Of a stretch of DNA of 20,630 bases, positions 4,234 to 17,081 are shown one piece after another (the stretch's first letter is position 1; every line of letters starts with the position of its first letter). The notes beneath the pieces were generated by a model. The model did not search any database and was not told where the DNA came from. It saw nothing but the letters and a program-made list of their open reading frames with translations. Made by a program: the position numbers and the translations under genes. The DNA comes from a virus, in IMG/VR virus record IMGVR_UViG_3300029319_000655, positions 1-20,630 of that record; one strand, written 5' to 3'.

Positions 4234-4821
4234 ATGACATCAGTAGTAGAAATATGTAACTCAGCACTTAACAGTTTAGGTGCTGCAAATATTACAGCGT
4301 TAACTGAAGATTCTCGTAATGCAAGGCTTTGTAACCAGCGTTACGAACCTGTACGAGATGCAATATTTAGAACTCATTACTGGAACTGTCTTGTAAAAAG
4401 AGTTGAACTAGCTGCAGATAGCACAGCTCCAGCTTATGAATACACAAAACAATATACATTACCAGCAGACTGCATAAGAATAATGCAAATTGGTGGTTTT
4501 CATAACGGCTCATCATCTATGCTTGACAATGGCCAAACTTTTAAAGTCGAGGGTAGAAAAATAATTACAGATGAACCTGAAATATTTTTAACGTATTTAG
4601 CAAAAATTACAGACCCACAGCAATACGATACGTTACTTGTAGAAACATTAGCGGCAAGATTAGCTGCTGAACTTGCATATGCCATCACACAATCCAACAC
4701 CCTAGCATCACAGCTGCAAGAAGTTTATCAGAGTAAACTTAGAGAGGCACGATTTGTAGATGCAACAGAAGGCACACCGTACGATGTTGATGCAAGCACG
4801 TTTATCAATTCGAGGTACTAA
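4234..4821 (+). CDS. Tail tubular protein A / head-to-tail adaptor (T7 gp11-like)
   Basis: A 195-residue protein with the signature of the gp11-like adaptor family: EICNSALNSLGAANITALTED at the N-terminus, then LCNQRYEPVRDAIFRTHYWNC (about residues 32-52) and the strand-rich YTLPADCIRIMQIGG segment (about 74-88). The C-terminal half is helical and Ala-rich. Twelve copies would sit under the portal and connect to the nozzle. The length is close to T7 gp11 (196). The gene follows the previous stop by one base, and its TAA overlaps the ATG of the nozzle gene (TAATG), consistent with coupled synthesis of the two tail parts. Confidence 0.88.
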   Translation: MTSVVEICNSALNSLGAANITALTEDSRNARLCNQRYEPVRDAIFRTHYWNCLVKRVELAADSTAPAYEYTKQYTLPADCIRIMQIGGFHNGSSSMLDNGQTFKVEGRKIITDEPEIFLTYLAKITDPQQYDTLLVETLAARLAAELAYAITQSNTLASQLQEVYQSKLREARFVDATEGTPYDVDASTFINSRY

Positions 4822-7343
4822 TGGCTAAAACTACTTTTGGTTTTACTAATTTTACAGCAGGTGAGTTGTCTCCAAGATTAGATGGTAGAACTGATTTGGC
4901 AAAATATTTTAATGGTTGTAAAACTCTTGAAAATATGACGATACATCCGCACGGTGGAGCATCACGCAGACCAGGATCAAAATTTATATCTGAGGTAAAA
5001 ACAAGCGGTGACACGACAAGATTGATACCTTTTGAATTTTCAACAACACAAACTTATATGATGGAGTTTGGTGACGAGTATATAAGATTTCATAAAGATA
5101 ATGGTATTATTACAGAAACTGGTAAGACAATATCAGGAATTACAAAAGCTAACCCAGGAGTAGTTACTGCAACCTCACACGGTTATTCTAATGGTGATTA
5201 TGTAATTTTGTCTGGCATAGTTGGCATGACAGAACTTAATGGCAGACAATTTAAAGTTGCAGGAGTTGCAACAAATACATTTCAGCTGCAAGACATGGAT
5301 GGTAATAATTTTGATACATCATCACTGACAACCTATGCCTCTGCTGGCACTGCATTTAAAATATATCAAATTGCATCCCCTTACGACAAAGATGATTTGT
5401 TTCAAATCAAATATGCACAATCTGCTGACGTTATGTATATTGTGCATCCAAGTTATGACATTCGTAAACTTACACGCACAGGCCACACTTCTTGGTCATT
5501 ATCAACAGTATCTATAAGCGGCAGCCCTAGCCCTGGTCTAAGCGGAGCAGATGACAGACCTAGCTCAGTTGCTTTCTTTGAACAGCGTCTAGTTTTTGCA
5601 GGCACAAACAACAACCCGCAATCTTTGTTTTTTAGTGTTGCTGGTAGTTATGAAAACTTTGCAACTGGTACAAATGCGACAGACGCAATGATATACACAA
5701 TTGCATCTAACCAGGTAAATGCAATACGTTATTTATCATCTACAACAGAATTGCTAATAGGCACAGTCGGAGGTGAGTTTGTTGCAACATCAGGATCTAA
5801 CAGTGAACCTATCACGCCAACAAATATTCAAATTACAAGGCAAACAAACTATGGATCTGCAAACGTGGACGCTATACAGATTGCAAACGTCACAATGTTT
5901 TTACAACGTGCAAAAAGAAAAGTTAGAGAATTAGTTTATAATTATGAGGTTGATGGATACATAGCACCTGACATGACTATCCTGGCTGAACATATTACTG
6001 AAGGCGGCTTGACATCTTTTGCATATCAACAAGAACCAGACAGTATTTTATGGGCAACAAGGAATGATGGTACTTTACTTGGCTTAACGTATCAAAGAAA
6101 CGAAAAAGTTATAGGATGGCACAGACATATTTTAGGCGGATACAGTGATACAGGAAAAACCATAAGTAGAAAATTTTTAAGTTTTACAGCTAATGCATCA
6201 AACGTAAGTGTAGCAAACGACACTATTACAATAAACTCACACGGCAAAAGCACTGGAGATCCTGTTTATTATTTTACGTCATCAAATGCTATAGGCGGTC
6301 TTACGACTGATCTTTTATATTTTGTTATTTCTGTTGACAGCAATACAATCAAACTGGCAACAACTTCTGCAAACGCTACTGCGGGTACAGCTGTAGATAT
6401 AACGTCAGCACCAGGTACAGATACTACACAATATGTTTTTGATGGTGTGAATATTGCAACTGACGTTGTTTATTCTGCCAATCATGGATTATCAACTGGA
6501 GATTTTTTTTATTATAGAAGCGGTGGCGGTGGTCTATCAGGATTGACAAACAATGCTAAATATTACGTTCTTAAAATAGACAGCAATCAATTTAAGATTG
6601 CAACAGACAGTGATGTAAAAACTTTTGTCAACTTACAATATGATGTCAGTGTAACAGGTACAATAACTGACAAAATACTGAAAGATGCAAAAGTAGAATC
6701 TATTGCAGTAATACCGTCAGATAGTGATGAGTACGAGCTATACATGATCACAAACAGATACATTAACGGGGCAACGAGAAGGTATGTAGAATATCTGCAT
6801 GATTTTGATTTTGGTGTTTCACAAGATGATGCGTTTTTTATTGATAGCGGTTTAACATATAACAGCGTGCCAACCACAACAATATCAGGACTAGATCATT
6901 TAGAGGGTGAGACTGTATCTATACTTGCTGACGGTGCATCACATCCAAACAAAACTGTATCAGGCGGATCTATAACACTTGATAGATCTGCACAAAAAGT
7001 ACACGTTGGATTGAATTATGATTCAATTTTACAAACGCTAAGATTAGAGGCTGGATCAGCTGCAGGTGTAGCACAGTCAAAAATAAAAAGAATAAACGAA
7101 ATTACAGTAAGACTTCACAGAACATTAGGTGTTGAAATAGGAGGTGATTTAGAAAACATGGAAAATATACCATTTAGATCTAGTGCAGCTCTTATGAACA
7201 ATCCTATAAACTTATTTAGTGGTGATAAAAAAATAGAACTGAGAGATGATTACAATACAGATGGACATGTGTTTGTTAGACAAACACAGCCACTGCCATT
7301 GACAGTTTTAGCAATTTATCCTGAAGTCACTGTATATGATTAA
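4821..7343 (+). CDS. Tail tubular protein B / tail nozzle (T7 gp12-like)
   Basis: An 840-residue protein whose start is typical of the nozzle family: GFTNFTAGELSPRLDGRTDLAKYFNGCKTLENM, then HPHGGASRRPGSKFI. Six copies would form the tip of the short tail. The length is similar to T7 gp12 (794). The middle holds inserted beta modules marked by three HG-x-S-(N/T)-GD motifs at residues 119-126, 473-480 and 554-561, each followed some 30-45 residues later by a 'F/I-x-(I/L)-A/Q' strand. Comparable modules are often annotated in databases as 'ubiquitin-activating enzyme E1 FCCH domain'. They probably decorate the nozzle surface. The C-terminus (IYPEVTVYD) is conserved in character, and the stop overlaps the next gene by 8 bases. 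Confidence 0.9.
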   Translation: MAKTTFGFTNFTAGELSPRLDGRTDLAKYFNGCKTLENMTIHPHGGASRRPGSKFISEVKTSGDTTRLIPFEFSTTQTYMMEFGDEYIRFHKDNGIITETGKTISGITKANPGVVTATSHGYSNGDYVILSGIVGMTELNGRQFKVAGVATNTFQLQDMDGNNFDTSSLTTYASAGTAFKIYQIASPYDKDDLFQIKYAQSADVMYIVHPSYDIRKLTRTGHTSWSLSTVSISGSPSPGLSGADDRPSSVAFFEQRLVFAGTNNNPQSLFFSVAGSYENFATGTNATDAMIYTIASNQVNAIRYLSSTTELLIGTVGGEFVATSGSNSEPITPTNIQITRQTNYGSANVDAIQIANVTMFLQRAKRKVRELVYNYEVDGYIAPDMTILAEHITEGGLTSFAYQQEPDSILWATRNDGTLLGLTYQRNEKVIGWHRHILGGYSDTGKTISRKFLSFTANASNVSVANDTITINSHGKSTGDPVYYFTSSNAIGGLTTDLLYFVISVDSNTIKLATTSANATAGTAVDITSAPGTDTTQYVFDGVNIATDVVYSANHGLSTGDFFYYRSGGGGLSGLTNNAKYYVLKIDSNQFKIATDSDVKTFVNLQYDVSVTGTITDKILKDAKVESIAVIPSDSDEYELYMITNRYINGATRRYVEYLHDFDFGVSQDDAFFIDSGLTYNSVPTTTISGLDHLEGETVSILADGASHPNKTVSGGSITLDRSAQKVHVGLNYDSILQTLRLEAGSAAGVAQSKIKRINEITVRLHRTLGVEIGGDLENMENIPFRSSAALMNNPINLFSGDKKIELRDDYNTDGHVFVRQTQPLPLTVLAIYPEVTVYD

Positions 7344-7776
7344 AATTGTACCGTTCGAATTTGAACATGCTAAATATATTGCGTACAACGAAATGAACGC
7401 AGATATTGTAAATGTAAAAGAAAGATACCTTAAAAATCTTGAACAGCTTGTAAAACCTAAAACAAGTTGGACAGGTATAATAGACGATAAAATTATTGCG
7501 GCAGGAGGCATGGTTGAATTATGGGATCATGTGTATGAGGGTTGGGTTATGGCTACAGCTGATATACAAAAACATCCTGTGGCAACAGCAAGAATTATAA
7601 AAAAAATTTTTGCAAAGGTTATGGTTGAACATGAGGTGCATAGATTACAAACAACTGTAAAAGCAGATTACGAAATAGGACATAAATTTGCTAAATGGTT
7701 AGGACTTGAAAAAGAGGGTTTGATGAGAAAATATTTAGACGATAACGATTATTATTTATATTCGAGGATTTTTTAA
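7336..7776 (+). CDS. GNAT-fold internal virion protein (T7 gp13-like)
   Basis: A 146-residue protein resembling the GNAT-like T7 gp13 family (T7 gp13 has 138 residues). Visible elements are an N-terminal MIKIVPFEFEHAKYI strand-helix typical of acetyltransferase folds, a central strand near WVMATADIQKHP, and C-terminal HRLQTTVKADYEIGHKFAKWLGLEKEG with the usual GNAT order of strand, helix and 'GF/GLEKEG' turn. The canonical acetyl-CoA loop (Q/R-x-x-G-x-G/A) is not seen; QKHPVAT stands in its place, so catalysis is doubtful. The gene overlaps the nozzle gene by 8 bases, has no independent ribosome site, and leads the ejection-protein cassette. A virion-assembly role is more likely than a metabolic one. 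Confidence 0.75.
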   Translation: MIKIVPFEFEHAKYIAYNEMNADIVNVKERYLKNLEQLVKPKTSWTGIIDDKIIAAGGMVELWDHVYEGWVMATADIQKHPVATARIIKKIFAKVMVEHEVHRLQTTVKADYEIGHKFAKWLGLEKEGLMRKYLDDNDYYLYSRIF

Positions 7777-8264
7777 TGGCAACAGCAATATTAGGTGCGG
7801 GAGCATCAGTACTGGGAGGCAGAGCTGCCGAGCAAGAAGGACAGTTTAATAGACAGATAGAAGAACGTAATGCAGAAAAATTACGCATGGACGCACAAAC
7901 TGCAATTAAACTAGGCAACAGAGACGTAAAAATATTTGAAAGAAAATTTGCAAACTTGCAGGCACAAACAGAAATGGCATTTTTAAAATCTGGTGTAAAA
8001 TTAGAAGGCACAGCACTTGAAGTTTTAGAAAACAACTATGCACTTGCTGAACTAGAAAAAGAAACAATCAGATACAATGCACAAGTAGAGTCTGCCGATA
8101 AAGTAGAACTCAGTGTCATAGCTCAAATGGAAGGTGAGGCCGCATACGCAAGAGGCAAAAACCAAAAGAAAGCATCTTACCTACAAGCTGGGCAAACATT
8201 GTTAGGTGGAGGCGGGCAGGCAGCTAGTCAAAAATCAAGCGGTAATAAATATTGGTGGATATAA
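7776..8264 (+). CDS. Internal virion protein (T7 gp14-like)
   Basis: A 162-residue protein with a short Gly/Ala-rich hydrophobic N-terminus (AILGAGASVLGG), a long highly charged helical body (about residues 20-140) and a Gly-rich segment with aromatic C-terminus (LLGGGGQ...YWWI). This layout, the size (T7 gp14 has 196 residues) and its place between the gp13-like and gp15-like genes identify it as the smallest ejection protein, which in T7 forms the outer-membrane part of the DNA-translocation channel. Its ATG overlaps the previous stop (TAATG), with GAGG upstream. Identity rests on architecture and position more than on sequence motifs. Confidence 0.75.
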   Translation: MATAILGAGASVLGGRAAEQEGQFNRQIEERNAEKLRMDAQTAIKLGNRDVKIFERKFANLQAQTEMAFLKSGVKLEGTALEVLENNYALAELEKETIRYNAQVESADKVELSVIAQMEGEAAYARGKNQKKASYLQAGQTLLGGGGQAASQKSSGNKYWWI

Positions 8265-8267
8265 ATT

Positions 8268-10100
8268 ATGGTAAAAATTCCTACATACGAAACAAGCACA
8301 GATGCTAGATCACCACAAAGCAGAGTAAGACCACAGCTGCAATCAGGTGCATCATCTGTATATCAAGAAGCTGCAAGACTTGCTGAGACAGCTGGTAATG
8401 TTGCTGCAACTTTAACTGAGAAACACACAAAAATCAGACAGGATCAAGAATTTTTTGATGCTTTTGAAAAATTACAAAAAGGTGATCCTGAAAACAATCA
8501 GCCAGGTGTAAATGAATTATTTACAACAGCATCATCAAGCAGTGATTTTGAAAACGCACTTGTTGATTTTGACACAGCATCTAAGGCGTGGATGAATCAA
8601 ATTGCTGATGGATTAGAAGATAAAATTGTTAAAGAAAGATTTTTACTAAAAGGCAGTGAAAGTTTGCTGAGTAATTATTTACAAGCTGAAAGAACAATTT
8701 ATGGCAACGCAAGAGAGTCATATAACATAACAATAAAAGAGCAAGTAAACAATTCTATATCTAATTACATTTCAGCCACGAACGCAAAAAATACATTGGG
8801 TGCAGCACAAGCGTTTGACGAGTTGTTTGGAAAAAAAGATGCAGACGGGAATATTGTTGTAATGTCTTACGGTGAAAGATTAAAAGACAGAGGCATGTTA
8901 CCAGACGGTGTTACTGCAAAACAATTTGATGACAACACAGAGGCAGCACTTGAAACGGTCTATGCTGCAGACCTTATAGAAAATAATCCTGCAGAATTTA
9001 TAAGATTAGACGCACAAGGATTTTTTGATAAATTAGATGCATCAAAATTGCCAGCGTTACGAGAAAAAGCAAAAAATAATTTAACAAGCCAAACAATAAA
9101 TAGTTTACTTACATACTTACCAATTGACGGTAATCGTAGTTTTGAGGAGTCAGCAAATCTGTTTGCAGAAGCAACCGCAGGTACTTTTGGCGGCCAAGAA
9201 AGTTTTGTAAATTTGTATAATACTCTTGATCAAGAAGGTAAAAACATATTTCAAGACGCAATAAACTCAAGACACAACCAGCAAAAATCTGAAATTTCAG
9301 CAAAAAGAAATAATGATTTATTCCGAGAGCAAGAAGCTAACAAAGAAATATTTGACAAATCATTAGAAACTTTAACAACAACATTAAGTATTAGTGAAAT
9401 TAATAGTCAAGATTGGCAAGGTGAAGAAGGTTTTCGTATGCAACAACAACTATCTGAATTAGTTGTAAAACGAGAAGCAGGAGAGTTGCCAACAGATCAA
9501 GGTATGCAACAGTACAATCAAATTTTTCCAAAAATTGTAAACAAAGAAATAACATCTTTAACACAACAATTTACTTTGCCAGGAGAAACAGTTGCAAAAA
9601 GTATAATAGAACGAACTGGAGGTATGGATGGCATTGGATACAATCAATTTAACACTTTTAACAATTTAATAAAAAACAGAACCAATGACGATTTTGTAAG
9701 GCAAGAAGCAGAATTTCAAAAATTCTTACAGGCTTATGAGCCACAAGTTATGGGCAGTCCTGCAATGCTGCAATTTAACACTTTTGCAGATGCACGTTAT
9801 TTTGACTTTACTTTAGCAATGCGTGCTGCCTATGATGCTGGCCTTGCCCAAGGAAAAGCACCATCAGATCTTTTGTTCTCTACAAGTCCTGATTTTATTT
9901 TAAGAGACATAAATGCGTATGTTCCAACTAACGACACAATGATGAAAGAGATGATGCAATCACTTATACCTGAAACAGAAGTGCCTCAATCAAAATTAGA
10001 TTGGGAAGCTACAGCACCACAAAAACCAACAGACATGCCTTTTGCAGAATTTACTCTTACAGATGAATACAAAGAATGGAAAGCAAGAGAGCCTGAATGA
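8268..10100 (+). CDS. Internal virion protein (T7 gp15-like)
   Basis: A 610-residue protein, predicted almost entirely helical and rich in Gln, Asn, Glu and Lys. It starts MVKIPTYETSTDARS and continues with an Ala-rich helix (about residues 28-50). No signal peptide, membrane span or catalytic motif is visible. By order it corresponds to T7 gp15 (747 residues), which builds the periplasmic tube of the ejection machine together with the gp16-type protein. The C-terminal FTLTDEYKEWKAREPE is shaped like the docking tails of such proteins. No clear Shine-Dalgarno precedes the ATG at 8268; re-initiation after the stop three bases upstream is likely. Its TGA overlaps the next ATG (ATGA). Confidence 0.72.
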   Translation: MVKIPTYETSTDARSPQSRVRPQLQSGASSVYQEAARLAETAGNVAATLTEKHTKIRQDQEFFDAFEKLQKGDPENNQPGVNELFTTASSSSDFENALVDFDTASKAWMNQIADGLEDKIVKERFLLKGSESLLSNYLQAERTIYGNARESYNITIKEQVNNSISNYISATNAKNTLGAAQAFDELFGKKDADGNIVVMSYGERLKDRGMLPDGVTAKQFDDNTEAALETVYAADLIENNPAEFIRLDAQGFFDKLDASKLPALREKAKNNLTSQTINSLLTYLPIDGNRSFEESANLFAEATAGTFGGQESFVNLYNTLDQEGKNIFQDAINSRHNQQKSEISAKRNNDLFREQEANKEIFDKSLETLTTTLSISEINSQDWQGEEGFRMQQQLSELVVKREAGELPTDQGMQQYNQIFPKIVNKEITSLTQQFTLPGETVAKSIIERTGGMDGIGYNQFNTFNNLIKNRTNDDFVRQEAEFQKFLQAYEPQVMGSPAMLQFNTFADARYFDFTLAMRAAYDAGLAQGKAPSDLLFSTSPDFILRDINAYVPTNDTMMKEMMQSLIPETEVPQSKLDWEATAPQKPTDMPFAEFTLTDEYKEWKAREPE

Positions 10101-13100
10101 TAATTAATGAATTACAAGAAATGCGAGCTGTTGGTGCATCAGAAGAAGAAATACGCCTATACCGTGATAACAAAATACGAGAAATGAAGGCTGTTGGTGC
10201 AACCGATGCAGAAATACAAACCGAGCTTGGCGGTTCTAAATTAAACAACACAACACAATCATCTTATTGGTCTGATTTAGAACAAACGAGACCCTTATCA
10301 TATAGTGAAAAAGCAGAAAAAAAATTATTAAGCAAAGTTAATTCACAACAAAACTTTATGCCAGAAGTTTCTTACACACCTGCTGGCCCACAACTAGATC
10401 CTGTTTCACAACTAATTGTAGAAGACGAAGCTAGACAGTCACCTATAGATAATAAATTTGAGTTTGGCAGATATTTTAAAAGAGGTCTCGGCATGTCAAA
10501 TTTTAATTTGATGTACCAATATTTTACAGACGGTTCTTTACCAGAAGGCTACACAGCTGATACTACACAACCAAGTAGATTTGAAAGAGTAACAGAACAA
10601 GTTGCAAACATTGTTGCGGATTTGCCAATTTACGCAACAACAGCGTATTTTGCTACAAGAGCTGAAAGAGGCAAAACAAAAGGTTTAGCTCCGTTGTATG
10701 CTGCAGGTTTTGTAAATGGTGCTATTAGAGAAAGTTTTATGACTGCACTAGAACAAGGAGATGTAGATACATGGTCAGAGTGGTGGAATATTTTCACACA
10801 CGAAGCAATACAAGCAGGCAACAAAGAAGGTTTAACCTTAGCAGGTTCTATTGGAGCTGGTAAGGTTGCAAAAAATTTATCGGCAAAAGCACTGGCTCAC
10901 CCTAGGTTAAGTAAATACAACTTACCAAGAGAGCTGTCAGCAATACCTGAATATTTAGCAACTGTTGGCGGTTTTAATATAATCGGTGGATTACTTGAAG
11001 GTCAAATGCCAACCAAACAAGAAGTCATAGATTCTTTTTTTGTAGTTGGTCTTTTGATGAGTGGTGCAAAAGGAGCATCTTATGCAGCCGATAGATATAA
11101 ACAAAAAATAAAAGAATCTGAAAAACCACCGCACGAAACAATAATAGAAATAGAAAAAAACAAAACAATAAAAGAAGATATAGTTAGCAAAAATAACACT
11201 GATAGAACTAACAATTTTAAAGTTACACAAGAACGTCTTACTGAGCTGCGGCAAAAAATAAATGAAGGGCCACTAGAATATTTAGAAAGTAAAGAACTAA
11301 AATTTTTAGAAGATGCACAACTGAAACAAGAAATACCTGGAGCAAGAGACGCAACACTTTCACCAGAAACAATTAATACAATACCATTAGTTGAGTTGTT
11401 AAATGAAAAACTTTATAACAAAAGAAAAGTTAGAAGTATATTAGATGAAGATGCTATTTTTAAAAATCATCCTGAAATAAAAAGACTAGAGCAAGAAGCA
11501 AATAATATTAAAAGAACAGAAATTGTTGCAGAGGAAAAAGGTCAGTACAGCAAAGAAACAGGATTTGCAGAAGCCTGGCAAAAAGAAAACAATTGGAAAA
11601 CTGTTGTTGAAGAATTATCTAACACAGAAGCTGCACCTGCAAATAAAAAAGCAATATTATTGTTAGGCGGTGCTGCAACTGGTAAAACAAGTTACGCAAA
11701 CAGAATTAACCAAGGCAAAGAAAAATATCAAACTATTGATCCTGATATTGTAAAAGAGCATCCACAGTTTGCAGAAACATATCAAAAAGGCAAAGGTGCA
11801 AACGCATTACATTTAGAAAGCAAAGCAATTGCTGCACAAATATTAGGTAATTTAGTAAACCAGGGCAAAAACATAATATATCCTATGGTTGGCTCTGGCG
11901 GCACTGGCAAAATACAAACTGTAATAAGTGCCTTACAAAAAAAAGGATATGAGGTTAGTGTAGCATATTTAAAAATACCAAGGTCAGAAGCTATTTATAG
12001 GGCAGTAAAGAGATCTATTGAAAGCGGTAGATATGTTCCACTTGACTATATAAGAAATGCAAGTAAAAATTCGGAGATAAATTATGAATACGCAAAAAAC
12101 ACAAGAGAAGTTGTTGAAGCAAAAAGAATCGACAACAGCTCAGGACAACCAAAAATTACAGAACAAAAATCCACTGAGCCTATCGGAGACGTTGCTGGAA
12201 CAAGACGAGATGGGTCTAGACCTGGTGATCCAGGAGCTGACAAAGTAACAATACAAGATCGTATAAGTTTTGAGCCACCGCCAGAAACAGGATTTAATTT
12301 TAAACAATTTAAAAATAACCTTATTAAAGATTACATTGATAAATTACATCCTATTCTGTTAGCTGTTAGAAGAACAGAGCAAGGTCAAATAAAAGGTGGA
12401 GAACTTAATGTTTACGAACAATTAAGAATACAGCCTGGCATGGTAGGGCGTGCAGAACATTTTATAAATACAGGTACATTAAAATTCTCTGACTTGTCTA
12501 TAACAGGCAAAGGTTTGTTTGACATACTATCACCATTAAAAAATGTAACTGAATACAAATCTTTTGCAGAATATGCTGTTGCAAAAAGAGTATTAGAACT
12601 AAGTGAAAGAGGTATTGAAACGGGCGTTGATATTGCAAAAGCTAGAACAGTTGTAAAAAATGGCAAAGAAAAATTTGATGGTGTTTTTACAGAGCTGCGT
12701 CAATATCAGTTAGAACTTCTTACATACCTAAAAGATGCTGGCATTATAAATGAAAAATCATTTAAGGTAATGCTAGAGGCTAACAAAGATTATGTACCGT
12801 TTGGTCGAGTGATGGAAGAAGGTGCAGCAGGAGGCAGCATTAGTAAATCTGTAAGCAATCCAATAAAACAAATTAAAGGAAGTGAAAGAGTCATTATAGA
12901 TCCACTAGAAAGTATTTTTAAAAATACATATCATTTTATAACTCTTGCTGAACGAAACATTGCTAATAAAAAATTTATTGATTTTACACAAAAGTATAAA
13001 GGGGAGTTTCCTGAAGTATCAATAGTTAAGGGCAAGTCAAAAGCAATACAAATAAAAAAAGGTGAATTAGATAACGTATTGAGTGAAGCTGCAAAAGCAG

Positions 13101-14839
13101 ACCTAGCAACAGCTGAAAACCTAACAATTTTTAGAAGAGACGGGCAGACTGTAGGAGACACACAAATAGTTATATTTCGTAAAGGTAAAAAGGAAATATG
13201 GGAAGTAGGGCCTGAATTTGCAGAGGTAATAAAAAATTCAAATGCAACATCAATGTCTGCGTTAGTAAATTTTTTAGCAATACCATCGAGGTGGTTAAGA
13301 TCTGGGTCAACTCTTGCACCAGATTTTGTAATGAGAAACTTACTAAGAGATACAACCACTGGTGCTGTCTTTACTAAATCAGGTCGAGGCATTGGAGGCT
13401 TGCCAATAATTACAACACTACGAGGTATAACTTATTTAGCTTTAGGGCGTAACAAATTAAATGCAGACTCTGTGGTAAGAAAATTTGAAAAATCAGGAGC
13501 TTTGCAATCTATGATGGTAAGTTTTGACAGAAAATATTTTGATAAAAAAATACAAAATGAATTGTACAGCACTCCTGTAAGAAACCTGGTTAAAAATCCA
13601 TTAGAGATGTTAAGGATAGCATCTGAATTAGCTGAAGCAACAACAAGAGTATCTGAGTTTAATTCAGCTTACAAAAAAGCAAAATCACAAGGCTTGTCAG
13701 AAAAAGCTGCATTGGAAAGAGCTGGCTTTGAGGGCAGGGATATAACAATTGATTTTGCAAAAATTGGTGCAAAGATGTCAGCTGTTAATAGTATTGTAGC
13801 CTTTTTCAATGCAAGATTACAAGGTTATGCAAAACTTTATGAGTCATTTAGAGATCAACCAATGACAACCTCTGCTCGTATTTTTTCATATATTGCAGCA
13901 CCGTCTGCATTACTATGGTATGTAAACCACGATGATCCTAGATATAAAGCTCTACCAAGTTGGCAAAAAGATTTATTTTGGATAATTATTGCTGGTGAAG
14001 GTGACGATGCAGTAGTTTACAGAATACCAAAGCCTTTTGAGTTAGGAGTTGTTTTTGGAACAGGCACAGAAAAAATGTTAGATTTTATTTCAGGAGAGGG
14101 TAACAAAAAAGACATAGCTGCTTTTGTAGGAGATTTGTTAGAAGATAACGCCAAAGGACTTTTGCCTATACCACAATTTCTTATGCCTGCTTTTGAAAAC
14201 TGGGCAAACAGAAGTCTGTTTACAGGGCAACCAATAATACCAAGAGGCACAGAAGGTATTTTACCAGAATATCAATATACGCCATACACAAGTGAAGTTG
14301 CAAAAGCGTTAGGGGCATTAATATCTGAAATTGATCCTACATTACCTATTGCTTCACCCGCAAGAATAGACGCTATTATAAGAGGGTGGACAGGCACATT
14401 AGGTAATTATGCGGTAAATTTAGCTGATGCTGCTTTAATTAAATCAGGGCTTGTAGAAGATCCAGTTAAGCCAGAACGAACTCTTGCAGATATGCCTTTT
14501 ATCAAAGCATTTATAGTTCGTAACCCGTCAGCAGGATCAGAGTTTATTGAAAAATTTTACAAACTATATGAGCCAGTACGCCAGGCATTTGACACTGTAA
14601 ACAAGGTATCTGACCCAAGACAAAAAATAGATGTAATTAACGATATAAATACTAGGCTTGGGTTTGACTCAGCTGGCTTGCAAGGCTATGCGGATGCTTT
14701 GTCAGCACAAAGAAAAACAATAAATTTAATATATAATAACAAACAAATTAGCCCTGCACAAAAAAGGCAACTTATAGACGATATTTATAGGCAAATGATT
14801 GACATTGCTAAAGCTGCAGTAGAATTGTTTGATAAATAA
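10097..14839 (+). CDS. Giant ejection protein at the T7 gp16 position: polyvalent protein with zeta-like kinase and LPD38-like region
   Basis: A 1580-residue protein (T7 gp16 has 1318). In order: a tandem N-terminal repeat, EMRAVGASEEEI (8-19) and EMKAVGATDAEI (29-40); hydrophobic helices (about 175-190, 285-300, 313-330) suited to membrane contact; a charged linker (about 335-495); a P-loop kinase domain resembling zeta toxin (about 495-675) with Walker A GGAATGKTS (524-532), an acidic TIDPD (547-550) and a late GRYVP (644-648); a Pro/Gly-rich linker (676-730); a helical region with DYVPFGR (898-904); and an LPD38-like region (about 1050-1260) with LAPDFVMRNLLRDT and FNARLQGYAKL. Such mixtures define 'polyvalent proteins' of phages and conjugative elements. 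Position after gp13-15-like genes implies it is packaged and ejected. No lytic transglycosylase motif was found. The start overlaps the previous stop (ATGA). Confidence 0.82.
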   Translation: MIINELQEMRAVGASEEEIRLYRDNKIREMKAVGATDAEIQTELGGSKLNNTTQSSYWSDLEQTRPLSYSEKAEKKLLSKVNSQQNFMPEVSYTPAGPQLDPVSQLIVEDEARQSPIDNKFEFGRYFKRGLGMSNFNLMYQYFTDGSLPEGYTADTTQPSRFERVTEQVANIVADLPIYATTAYFATRAERGKTKGLAPLYAAGFVNGAIRESFMTALEQGDVDTWSEWWNIFTHEAIQAGNKEGLTLAGSIGAGKVAKNLSAKALAHPRLSKYNLPRELSAIPEYLATVGGFNIIGGLLEGQMPTKQEVIDSFFVVGLLMSGAKGASYAADRYKQKIKESEKPPHETIIEIEKNKTIKEDIVSKNNTDRTNNFKVTQERLTELRQKINEGPLEYLESKELKFLEDAQLKQEIPGARDATLSPETINTIPLVELLNEKLYNKRKVRSILDEDAIFKNHPEIKRLEQEANNIKRTEIVAEEKGQYSKETGFAEAWQKENNWKTVVEELSNTEAAPANKKAILLLGGAATGKTSYANRINQGKEKYQTIDPDIVKEHPQFAETYQKGKGANALHLESKAIAAQILGNLVNQGKNIIYPMVGSGGTGKIQTVISALQKKGYEVSVAYLKIPRSEAIYRAVKRSIESGRYVPLDYIRNASKNSEINYEYAKNTREVVEAKRIDNSSGQPKITEQKSTEPIGDVAGTRRDGSRPGDPGADKVTIQDRISFEPPPETGFNFKQFKNNLIKDYIDKLHPILLAVRRTEQGQIKGGELNVYEQLRIQPGMVGRAEHFINTGTLKFSDLSITGKGLFDILSPLKNVTEYKSFAEYAVAKRVLELSERGIETGVDIAKARTVVKNGKEKFDGVFTELRQYQLELLTYLKDAGIINEKSFKVMLEANKDYVPFGRVMEEGAAGGSISKSVSNPIKQIKGSERVIIDPLESIFKNTYHFITLAERNIANKKFIDFTQKYKGEFPEVSIVKGKSKAIQIKKGELDNVLSEAAKADLATAENLTIFRRDGQTVGDTQIVIFRKGKKEIWEVGPEFAEVIKNSNATSMSALVNFLAIPSRWLRSGSTLAPDFVMRNLLRDTTTGAVFTKSGRGIGGLPIITTLRGITYLALGRNKLNADSVVRKFEKSGALQSMMVSFDRKYFDKKIQNELYSTPVRNLVKNPLEMLRIASELAEATTRVSEFNSAYKKAKSQGLSEKAALERAGFEGRDITIDFAKIGAKMSAVNSIVAFFNARLQGYAKLYESFRDQPMTTSARIFSYIAAPSALLWYVNHDDPRYKALPSWQKDLFWIIIAGEGDDAVVYRIPKPFELGVVFGTGTEKMLDFISGEGNKKDIAAFVGDLLEDNAKGLLPIPQFLMPAFENWANRSLFTGQPIIPRGTEGILPEYQYTPYTSEVAKALGALISEIDPTLPIASPARIDAIIRGWTGTLGNYAVNLADAALIKSGLVEDPVKPERTLADMPFIKAFIVRNPSAGSEFIEKFYKLYEPVRQAFDTVNKVSDPRQKIDVINDINTRLGFDSAGLQGYADALSAQRKTINLIYNNKQISPAQKRQLIDDIYRQMIDIAKAAVELFDK

Positions 14840-14948: not shown

Positions 14949-17081
14949 ATGACACTTAGCACACTTACTGTGAAAAACAGCTATTCTGGTAATGGCTCAA
15001 CCACGGCATTTAACTACACTTTTGGTATAAACAGCACGTCTGAACTAAAAGTTATTATAAGAAGTTCATTAGGCACTGAAACCACAAAAACTATTACAAC
15101 ACATTACACTGTTGCTGACTCAGGAGCTGCGGGCGGCACTGTAACATTTACATCTGGTAACACGCCAGCATCAGGTGAGACTGTCGTTCTTATAAGAGAC
15201 ACGGATCTAACACAAGAAACAGACTATGTTGCAAACGATCCGTTTCCTGCTGAAACACACGAAGATGCACTGGATAAAATGCAAATGCAGATCCAGGAGA
15301 TACAGGAAGAAGTTGATAGAACAATAAAGTTGTCTCGTACAAATACGATGACATCGACAGAATTTACTGAAAATGCTACAAGCCGTGCATCTAAGGTTTT
15401 ATCTTTTGACAGCTCTGGTGAGTTATCAGTTACAAACGAAATAGGTAACTTCTTAGGTAACTGGGCCACAGGCACAGCATTTAGTTTGCGTGATATTGTT
15501 AGACAAAACTCTACATCTGACTCAAGCACATACAAAAACGTATATATTTGTACTACAGCTCATACATCTACAGGATCATATTTAACACAAAACGATACGT
15601 CAAACTGGGCTTTACTTGTTGAGGTTGCGTCTTTTGATACTTTACAAGAACTTAACGATACAAACATATCAAGCCTAGGATCAGGGCATGTCCTTATTTA
15701 TGACGGATCTGATAGTTTTGACAACAAAGCTATAAGCGGTGATGCTACACTTGCAGCTAACGGTGCATTAACTATTGCAAACAGTGCTGTAGAAACAGCT
15801 ATGATTGCAGACGATGCCGTCACAGCAGCTAAGATGGCTGACGATGCAGTAGCAACAGCAGCTATAGCAGCAGATGCAGTAACAGGTGCAAAGATTGCAG
15901 ATGATGCTATTGACAGTGAACATTATACAGACGGGTCAATTGACACGGCTCACATTGCAGACAGTAACGTAACCACAGCAAAAATTGCAGATGATGCTAT
16001 TACAAATGCAAAATTAGCTGATGACGCTGTAGCAGCTGCGGAGCTTGCGGCCACAGCAATCAGTGGACATACAGCAATTACCAGCGGTGTTGATACAACA
16101 AATGACGTATTGTTGTTACACGATGCAGATGCCTCTGCGAACAAAAAGATTTCTGTTGCAAACCTAATATCAAGTGCAGGTGGTTTGACAGACGTTGTTG
16201 CTGACACAAGCCCACAACTAGGCGGTAACTTAGATACAAACTCACATAACATACTTATAGATGATGCACATTTTATTGCAGACGAAAATAGCAACGAACA
16301 AATAATATTCCAAACAACTGCTTCAGCTGTAAACCAGTTTGATATAACCAATGCTGCAACAGGTAATGCTCCAAGCATATCAGCTACAGGTGATGACACA
16401 AACATCAGTATGAGCTTACTACCTAAAGGTAGTGGCGTAGTATTACTTGACGGTAACGGCAGCTCTGGAGGTGTATCAGTATCTGATGGATTAATAGATA
16501 TCAGAACAGGCACAGGCAATGTTGCTAAAGTCAAATTTTATTGTGAGTCATCAAACGCACACGCACAAACCTTACAGGCAGCTCCTCATTCAGCAGGAAG
16601 TTCTGCAGTATTAGTTTTACCTACAGCATCTGGTACTTTAGTTGGCACAGGTGATAGTGGTTCTGTATCAAATGGCATGCTTGCTGGATCAATTGCAGAC
16701 AGTAAACTTTCTACAATATCTACAGCAGGTAAAGTCGATATAGGTGCATTAGAAATAGATGGTGCAACTGATATTGGCGGTGCGTTAGCAGACGCAGATT
16801 TATTTATCGTAGATGACGGTGCAAATGGCACAGAAAGAAAAGCAGCTGCGTCAAGAATAAAAACTTATGTTGGTGCAGAGGCTGGTGCATTTTCTATTGC
16901 AAACCTGGACATTGATGGTGGCACAGATATAGGTGCTGCAATACAAGATGACGACTTATTTATTATTGATGATGGTGCAGGCGGAACAAATCGTAAGGTT
17001 GCTGCATCTAGAATTAAAACGTACGCACAAGGCACAGGAGCTAGTAAAGGCTTTGCAGTTGCCATGGCTATAGCATTATAG
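14949..17081 (+). CDS. Tail fibre protein with T7 gp17-type N-terminus
   Basis: A 710-residue protein. Residues 1-150 match the T7 tail-fibre N-terminal anchor: GSTTAFNYTFGINSTSELKV, a HYTVADSGAAGGTVTFTSG strand pair, then FPAETHEDALDKMQMQIQEI and a coiled coil into the shaft. Residues 285-371 are nine imperfect ten-residue repeats with consensus (K)-I-A-D-D-A-V-x-x-A, a likely trimeric shaft. Residues 601-641 and 653-693 are an internal duplication, and the protein ends GFAVAMAIAL. Six trimers attached at the portal-adaptor region would mediate adsorption. The start has a GGA 6 bases upstream and follows the terminator closely. The next gene begins after an AGGAGG. Confidence 0.88.
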   Translation: MTLSTLTVKNSYSGNGSTTAFNYTFGINSTSELKVIIRSSLGTETTKTITTHYTVADSGAAGGTVTFTSGNTPASGETVVLIRDTDLTQETDYVANDPFPAETHEDALDKMQMQIQEIQEEVDRTIKLSRTNTMTSTEFTENATSRASKVLSFDSSGELSVTNEIGNFLGNWATGTAFSLRDIVRQNSTSDSSTYKNVYICTTAHTSTGSYLTQNDTSNWALLVEVASFDTLQELNDTNISSLGSGHVLIYDGSDSFDNKAISGDATLAANGALTIANSAVETAMIADDAVTAAKMADDAVATAAIAADAVTGAKIADDAIDSEHYTDGSIDTAHIADSNVTTAKIADDAITNAKLADDAVAAAELAATAISGHTAITSGVDTTNDVLLLHDADASANKKISVANLISSAGGLTDVVADTSPQLGGNLDTNSHNILIDDAHFIADENSNEQIIFQTTASAVNQFDITNAATGNAPSISATGDDTNISMSLLPKGSGVVLLDGNGSSGGVSVSDGLIDIRTGTGNVAKVKFYCESSNAHAQTLQAAPHSAGSSAVLVLPTASGTLVGTGDSGSVSNGMLAGSIADSKLSTISTAGKVDIGALEIDGATDIGGALADADLFIVDDGANGTERKAAASRIKTYVGAEAGAFSIANLDIDGGTDIGAAIQDDDLFIIDDGAGGTNRKVAASRIKTYAQGTGASKGFAVAMAIAL
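15801..16061 (+). repeat. Decapeptide-encoding repeats in the tail fibre shaft
   Basis: Nine imperfect coding repeats of about 30 bases (units of 10, 11, 9, 10, 10, 10, 10, 10 and a truncated last unit). Typical units are MIADDAVTAA, KIADDAITNA and KLADDAVAAA; the units with HYTDGSIDTA and HIADSNVTTA are most diverged. Regular Ile/Ala-Asp-Asp-Ala spacing suggests a repeating trimeric shaft segment whose length could change by slippage or recombination. Confidence 0.7.
16749..17027 (+). repeat. 52-residue-period internal duplication in the tail fibre C-terminus
   Basis: Residues 601-641 (16749-16871) and 653-693 (16905-17027) align over 41 positions with about 30 identities by hand. The shared frame is L-x-IDG-x-TDIG, DLFI-x-DDGA, GT-x-RK and AASRIKTY. 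The two copies are diverged at the DNA level, so the duplication is not recent. Confidence 0.75.

Follow-up and report, generated by a model that had tools for sequence, protein, structure and literature searches.

Why should a putative phage ejection protein carry a kinase of the zeta-toxin type, and what could such a kinase phosphorylate? The question is raised by a virus record of 20,630 nucleotides, which in its full length we refer to as the window, in which a first-pass annotation had placed a zeta-like kinase domain inside a protein at the T7 gp16 position, proposing that it is carried in the head, injected before the DNA and active on nucleotide-sugar or nucleotide substrates. A kinase in an ejection protein would work prior to the expression of any phage gene.

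The main genes of the window all lie on the + strand in a T7-like order: connector, scaffold/protease position, capsid, gp11, gp12, GNAT (gp13 position), gp14-like, gp15-like, a 1580-aa protein and tail fibre. The 1580-aa protein thus follows the gp14/gp15 genes and precedes the tail fibre, as expected of a T7 gp16-type gene. The genes around the kinase are as follows:

7336–7776, + strand, GNAT-like protein at the gp13 position (phrog_308 internal virion protein, 3.4e-12)
7776–8264, + strand, gp14-like internal virion protein (phrog_418 internal virion protein, 1.5e-15)
8268–10100, + strand, gp15-position protein of 610 aa (matches in the phage collection to pelagiphages only)
10097–14839, + strand, gp16-like ejection (polyvalent) protein of 1580 aa, comprising N-terminal module, kinase insert and LPD38 C-terminal half (from the ORF, LPD38 and pelagiphage alignment)
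14949–17081, + strand, tail fibre (phrog_13893 and phrog_1640 tail proteins)

The capsid protein is 66–71% identical to those of its best-matching Pelagibacter phages, including HTVC010P, and by this comparison the phage is a marine relative of the HTVC010P-type pelagiphages (viruses of SAR11 bacteria). Together with the pelagiphage matches at the gp15 position, the capsid identity makes a SAR11-like host likely. The GNAT-like protein is conserved across pelagiphages, the gp12-position tail protein (4821–7343) matches a ubiquitin-activating enzyme E1 FCCH domain model (6.5e-15), and in the deposited HTVC010P genome the gp16-like gene (L010 6916–10539) is split across several annotated ORFs. 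The neighbours of the kinase gene are virion genes, and the PF08998 profile recognised no epsilon gene in the 20.6-kb fragment, in line with the earlier remark that none is seen nearby, a weak check because this profile was silent in the control genomes too.

Aside from one insert, the 1580-aa protein aligns end to end with HTVC034P gp44, Lederberg_8 and HTVC204P gp40. Its parts are:

10097–11191, + strand, N-terminal module, residues 1–365, common to pelagiphage isolates
11192–12301, + strand, inserted stretch, residues ~366–735, replacing the ~60-aa linker of relatives
11192–11593, + strand, charged pre-kinase part of the insert, residues 366–499, without known domain
11594–12166, + strand, zeta-type kinase domain as modelled, residues 500–690 (Pfam, AlphaFold and Foldseek)
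12137–12331, + strand, low-complexity linker, residues 681–745, less constrained
13934–14503, + strand, LPD38 domain, residues 1280–1469 (Pfam 1.7e-40)

The kinase-bearing stretch of ~370 aa sits where relatives have a shorter linker (~60 aa in HTVC034P), and both flanks align. In the alignment of gp16-like proteins it is absent from HTVC034P, Lederberg, HTVC204P and Manatee Spring phage, and it is present in four IMG/VR relatives (L001–L004, the window group). A sequencing artefact was rejected, as the same in-frame insert recurs in these four. Residues 495–676, the extent first given for the domain, do cover it; the inserted stretch is larger. The pre-kinase part is confined to the window group among all loci compared, GC is about 0.30 over residues 361–490, and hydrophobic segments (Kyte-Doolittle maxima) occupy residues 282–331, just N-terminal of the insert. 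LPD38, listed as phage-only (PMC5512222), and Zeta lie within the same 1580 aa, between the gp15-like and tail-fibre genes, which bears out the polyvalent-protein setting proposed before. A Pfam search found no N-terminal lytic transglycosylase in the protein; that of T7 gp16 has been called phage-specific (PMC8954989).

The domain has, with near certainty, a zeta-type kinase fold, as judged from profiles and a structure model. Pfam Zeta_toxin (PF06414) matches residues 513–680 at 9.6e-16 and 58.2 bits, against a cut-off of 22.3 bits, over positions 12–186 of the 199 in the profile. When solved structures were searched with a profile built from the window protein and the four relatives, Zeta (1gvn, 1.1e-7) came first and PezT (9.5e-4) second. 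The AlphaFold model (pLDDT 84.7, pTM 0.81) was built from 21 sequences of phage and bacterial relatives, replacing a poor five-sequence run (pLDDT 43). Its top four Foldseek matches in the PDB are all epsilon/zeta structures (3q8x/1gvn, E 1e-9 to 5e-9, TM 0.77–0.79), with PezT (TM 0.67–0.72), AvrRxo1 (0.62–0.67) and bacterial polynucleotide kinase (about 0.6) further down; the viral structure matches include many phage proteins labelled 'Zeta toxin domain' and one annotated Acb1. True TA Zeta proteins of the epsilon/zeta type, the best relatives among solved structures and on plasmids, share about 30% identity (E 1e-4 to 1e-3; the TA yardstick was a plasmid zeta of a probiotic Enterococcus lactis). 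Neither NCBIfam nor PADLOC matched the domain meaningfully. With the DAC16 zeta as query no relatives came up in IMG/VR, and A3 was too diverse to serve as a scan query. A chance motif was rejected, the P-loop plus DxD pattern alone arising in 32 of 20,000 shuffled versions of this protein, as were crassvirus cargo proteins as a precedent, 'zeta' there being a group name.

The lower matches bear on a different identity, an enzyme resembling polynucleotide kinase that would work on the ends of DNA or RNA and mend nicked incoming DNA or cleaved tRNA. Bacterial Pnkp is matched at 8e-9 (4xrp) with a TM of about 0.6, there is a PHROG polynucleotide kinase match (0.0072), and related proteins have DNA-acting neighbours (ParB, methylase, helicase). 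However, Zeta is clearly ahead both in the sequence-profile comparison (2.1e-13 vs 8.2e-9 for Pnkp1) and in fold (TM 0.79 vs about 0.6), and the window protein is without a phosphatase or ligase partner, leaving this identity quite improbable.

To what extent, then, is the active site that of a zeta toxin? The relevant residues are:

11666–11692, + strand, Walker A GGAATGKTS, residues 524–532 (K530 = Zeta K46; codon 11684–11686)
11738–11746, + strand, D548-P-D550 (D550 = Zeta D67)
11810–11818, + strand, H572-L-E574, H-x-E motif (alignment)
11882–11896, + strand, acceptor loop P596-M-V598-G-S600, for Zeta E116-G-T118-G-R120 (P-x-V-G signature)
12011–12040, + strand, R639 and R645-Y-V-P (GRYVP), = Zeta R158 and R171

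The Walker A, TIDPD, strand and R...R...GRYVP read earlier are all at the places given for them: T546-I-D548-P-D550 stands 18–20 residues beyond the Walker lysine, followed by GYEVSVAYLKIP. Zeta K46, D67 (the catalytic base, PMC3062530), R158 and R171 are kept as K530, D550, R639 and R645, and the H-x-E motif, which TA Zeta does not have, is common to nearly all aligned phage zeta domains. The acceptor side differs. Zeta contacts UNAG through D67, T118, R120, T128 and E100 (PMC3062530), and in the alignment against TA Zeta the window protein reads A, V, S and V at the places of E100, T118, R120 and T128, so that four of the five published contacts are replaced in the window; Zeta E116 is replaced by proline. 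At residue level the domain keeps the ATP side of a zeta kinase but not its UNAG site, and UDP-GlcNAc is not supported as its substrate. In this respect the first-pass annotation had to be revised, whilst its kinase fold, polyvalent setting and gp16 position all stood. With the UNAG pocket missing, the kinase probably acts on a target other than UNAG.

Iyer et al. (2017, PMC5512222) proposed that zeta domains of polyvalent proteins weaken the cell wall as injection proceeds; a kinase of UNAG or UDP-sugars, whether brought in at infection or produced late, would in this way weaken peptidoglycan and ease DNA entry or lysis. The best solved and plasmid relatives of the domain are true epsilon/zeta TA Zeta proteins, as this proposal would have it, and both substrate and site can vary among zeta kinases: ng_zeta1 acts on UDP-sugars via contacts unconserved in streptococcal zeta (PMC5923241), so a different UDP-sugar mode is possible. 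We nevertheless consider a UDP-sugar substrate unlikely, given the four replaced contacts, the report that a PezT variant in which the T118-equivalent threonine is changed to valine is non-toxic (PMC3062530), and the few ejected copies, which, extrapolating from the six copies of gp16 (PMC8954989), could hardly drain a large UDP-GlcNAc pool.

Amongst the best 80 LPD38 relatives in IMG/VR, this kinase is found in four contigs, those of the window group. Another 74 of the 80 have shorter N-terminal parts and no kinase-profile match, although the profile could miss very divergent zetas. L082 and L084, also among the best 80, encode a different zeta: their distant LPD38 protein (L082 ORF 2902–8598, also in L084), of ~1,850 aa, combines a histidine phosphatase (4e-40) with a zeta-like kinase (GGTGAGKT), a separate zeta acquisition through which a single putative ejected protein has both enzymes. 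LPD38-type proteins in L142, L143 and L144 have methyltransferase or ddrB-ParB domains N-terminal of the common C-terminal half, cargo which points to a general cargo slot.

The kinase is under purifying selection in the window group. Between its three main lineages the kinase dN/dS is 0.14–0.19, similar to that of the structural modules, whilst the post-kinase linker reaches 0.30–0.47, and the amino-acid identity of the kinase is as high as, or near, that of the structural C-terminal half. Synonymous divergence is unequal between modules of the gene, and L002 and L003 are 98–99% identical in their N-terminal and kinase parts, but 83% in the C-terminal part, which implies that the module or its flanks recombine.

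The P-x-V-G loop is not confined to the window group, recurring in L138, L151, L152 and L153, and a scan of IMG/VR yielded 149 related loci, of which 80 were kept. In these 80 kinases the equivalents of K, DxD, H, E, G119 and R158 never vary and that of R171 hardly does; the P of P-x-V-G is kept in 78 and the V in 73, frequencies which, like that of DxD, are partly ascertainment because the P-x-V-G and DxD stretches were the two search patterns, the H-x-E and R positions being in neither. Most of these kinases lie in ORFs of ~700–1,250 aa, followed directly by a phrog_684 virion structural protein and by a tail fibre, the start of which resembles that of the window's tail fibre. Others belong to classic polyvalent proteins, with fusions to ART-PolyVal (L151), ddrB-ParB (L152, L241) and a weak ART plus LPD38 (L153). 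In one 3,347-aa protein (L236 345–10385) a P-x-V-G zeta kinase is joined to InPase and ddrB-ParB as well as to a methylase and a strawberry-notch (DarB-type) helicase. Isolates in the phage collection match the signature kinases only at a distance. In the tree the window groups with the P-x-V-G kinases at modest support (77/87), a suggestive grouping which may be affected by long branches, within a larger set including Bacteroides and halovirus zetas with V at the T118 place (90/90).

The conservation also bears on whether the domain is an enzyme at all. The proline at the Zeta E116 position, where an acid is lost, could lower activity, and the domain is part of a structural protein whose relatives do without it, as would suit a catalytically weak or dead P-loop domain with no role beyond helping the ejection protein to fold or assemble under nucleotide control. 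Yet K530, D548, D550, H572, E574, R639 and R645 are conserved in the window and in essentially all 80 related phage kinases, which, with the low dN/dS, makes loss of catalysis a rather improbable account; we predict, with some confidence, that the domain is an active kinase.

Our preferred reading, to which we give about an even chance, is that the domain is ejected as cargo, uses ATP to phosphorylate an altered (non-UNAG) acceptor, and acts at DNA entry in takeover or counter-defence. The 1580-aa protein would be packed in the head and ejected together with the gp14- and gp15-like proteins, and its ejection is probable by analogy: an HTVC010P-type phage is said to have gp14/15/16-like internal virion proteins (PMC10504331), and the published T7 model has the N-terminal part of gp16 in the periplasm and six copies of the C-terminal part in the cytoplasm (PMC8954989). 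Our literature search found no publication on pelagiphage virion proteomics. The N-terminal module, hydrophobic segments included, would lodge in the envelope, whilst the kinase and the LPD38 half would reach the cytoplasm, where ATP is found; that the segments at 282–331 precede the kinase would place it on the ATP side. There it would move phosphate from ATP onto a host acceptor via K530, D550, R639 and R645. With the UNAG contacts replaced by the P-x-V-G loop, and with ART, ParB, InPase and DarB-type neighbours elsewhere, the acceptor would most likely be a nucleotide-type molecule or a nucleic-acid end of the first infection minutes, rather than bulk UDP-GlcNAc, and the few copies per virion suggest an acceptor needing no bulk consumption. 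More speculatively, and we hold this as a doubtful though possible extension, the P-x-V-G zeta kinases could constitute a distinct phage enzyme class which phosphorylates a new acceptor (a nucleotide signal, NAD or a nucleic-acid end) right after ejection, disarming or taking over the host, and which in this pelagiphage relative has been built into the DNA-ejection channel protein.

The insertion of a zeta kinase into a gp16-like ejection protein, here in a pelagiphage relative, and the P-x-V-G acceptor loop both appear to be new: a literature search, mostly outside subscription journals, found no paper on a pelagiphage gp16 zeta insertion or a P-x-V-G loop, nor on a phage zeta-toxin kinase in anti-defense. 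HTVC010P-type pelagiphages are abundant ocean viruses, and the ejection proteins of the isolates compared are without a kinase domain. The P-x-V-G signature, common among related IMG/VR loci, is a clear case where the label 'zeta toxin' would mislead on substrate.

The window protein resembles several known systems in part. Like T7 gp16, it is large, putatively internal, and encoded after gp14/gp15-like genes and before the tail fibre, but T7 gp16 lacks a kinase and carries a transglycosylase at its N terminus (PMC8954989), and the two proteins show no sequence match, the link resting on position and PMC10504331. The HTVC010P-type gp16-like proteins (HTVC034P gp44, Lederberg_8, HTVC204P gp40) share its gene order and 38–41% identity over the C-terminal half, yet are about 1,230–1,250 aa long, with a short linker and without the kinase. 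With the Zeta/PezT toxins (PF06414; 1gvn, 3q8x, 2p5t) the domain shares fold, Walker A, catalytic Asp and the two phosphate-side arginines, the similarity extending to the N-terminal helix of TA Zeta; unlike them, it has lost UNAG contacts, has the P-x-V-G loop and H-x-E motif, and lies in a 1580-aa virion-region carrier, with no recognised epsilon in the fragment. Zeta-like kinases in polyvalent proteins and MuF fusions were described in 2017 (Iyer et al., PMC5512222), and those of cyanophage PSS2 (a 1499-aa MuF-zeta) and haloviruses HCTV-1, HCTV-5 and HVTV-1 are likewise one domain of a large phage protein, the PSS2 and HCTV-1 zetas adjoining or being fused to Mu F-type head proteins. PSS2 and its relatives, however, read D-G-T at the acceptor loop, where the window has P-M-V-G in a T7 gp16-like LPD38 carrier. 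The P-x-V-G kinases of uncultivated podoviruses (L138, L151, L152 and most of L173–L252) share both loop signature and virion-gene neighbourhood with the window, but whilst theirs are C-terminal in a separate protein, often of ~1,100 aa, upstream of phrog_684, the window kinase lies inside the LPD38 protein itself.
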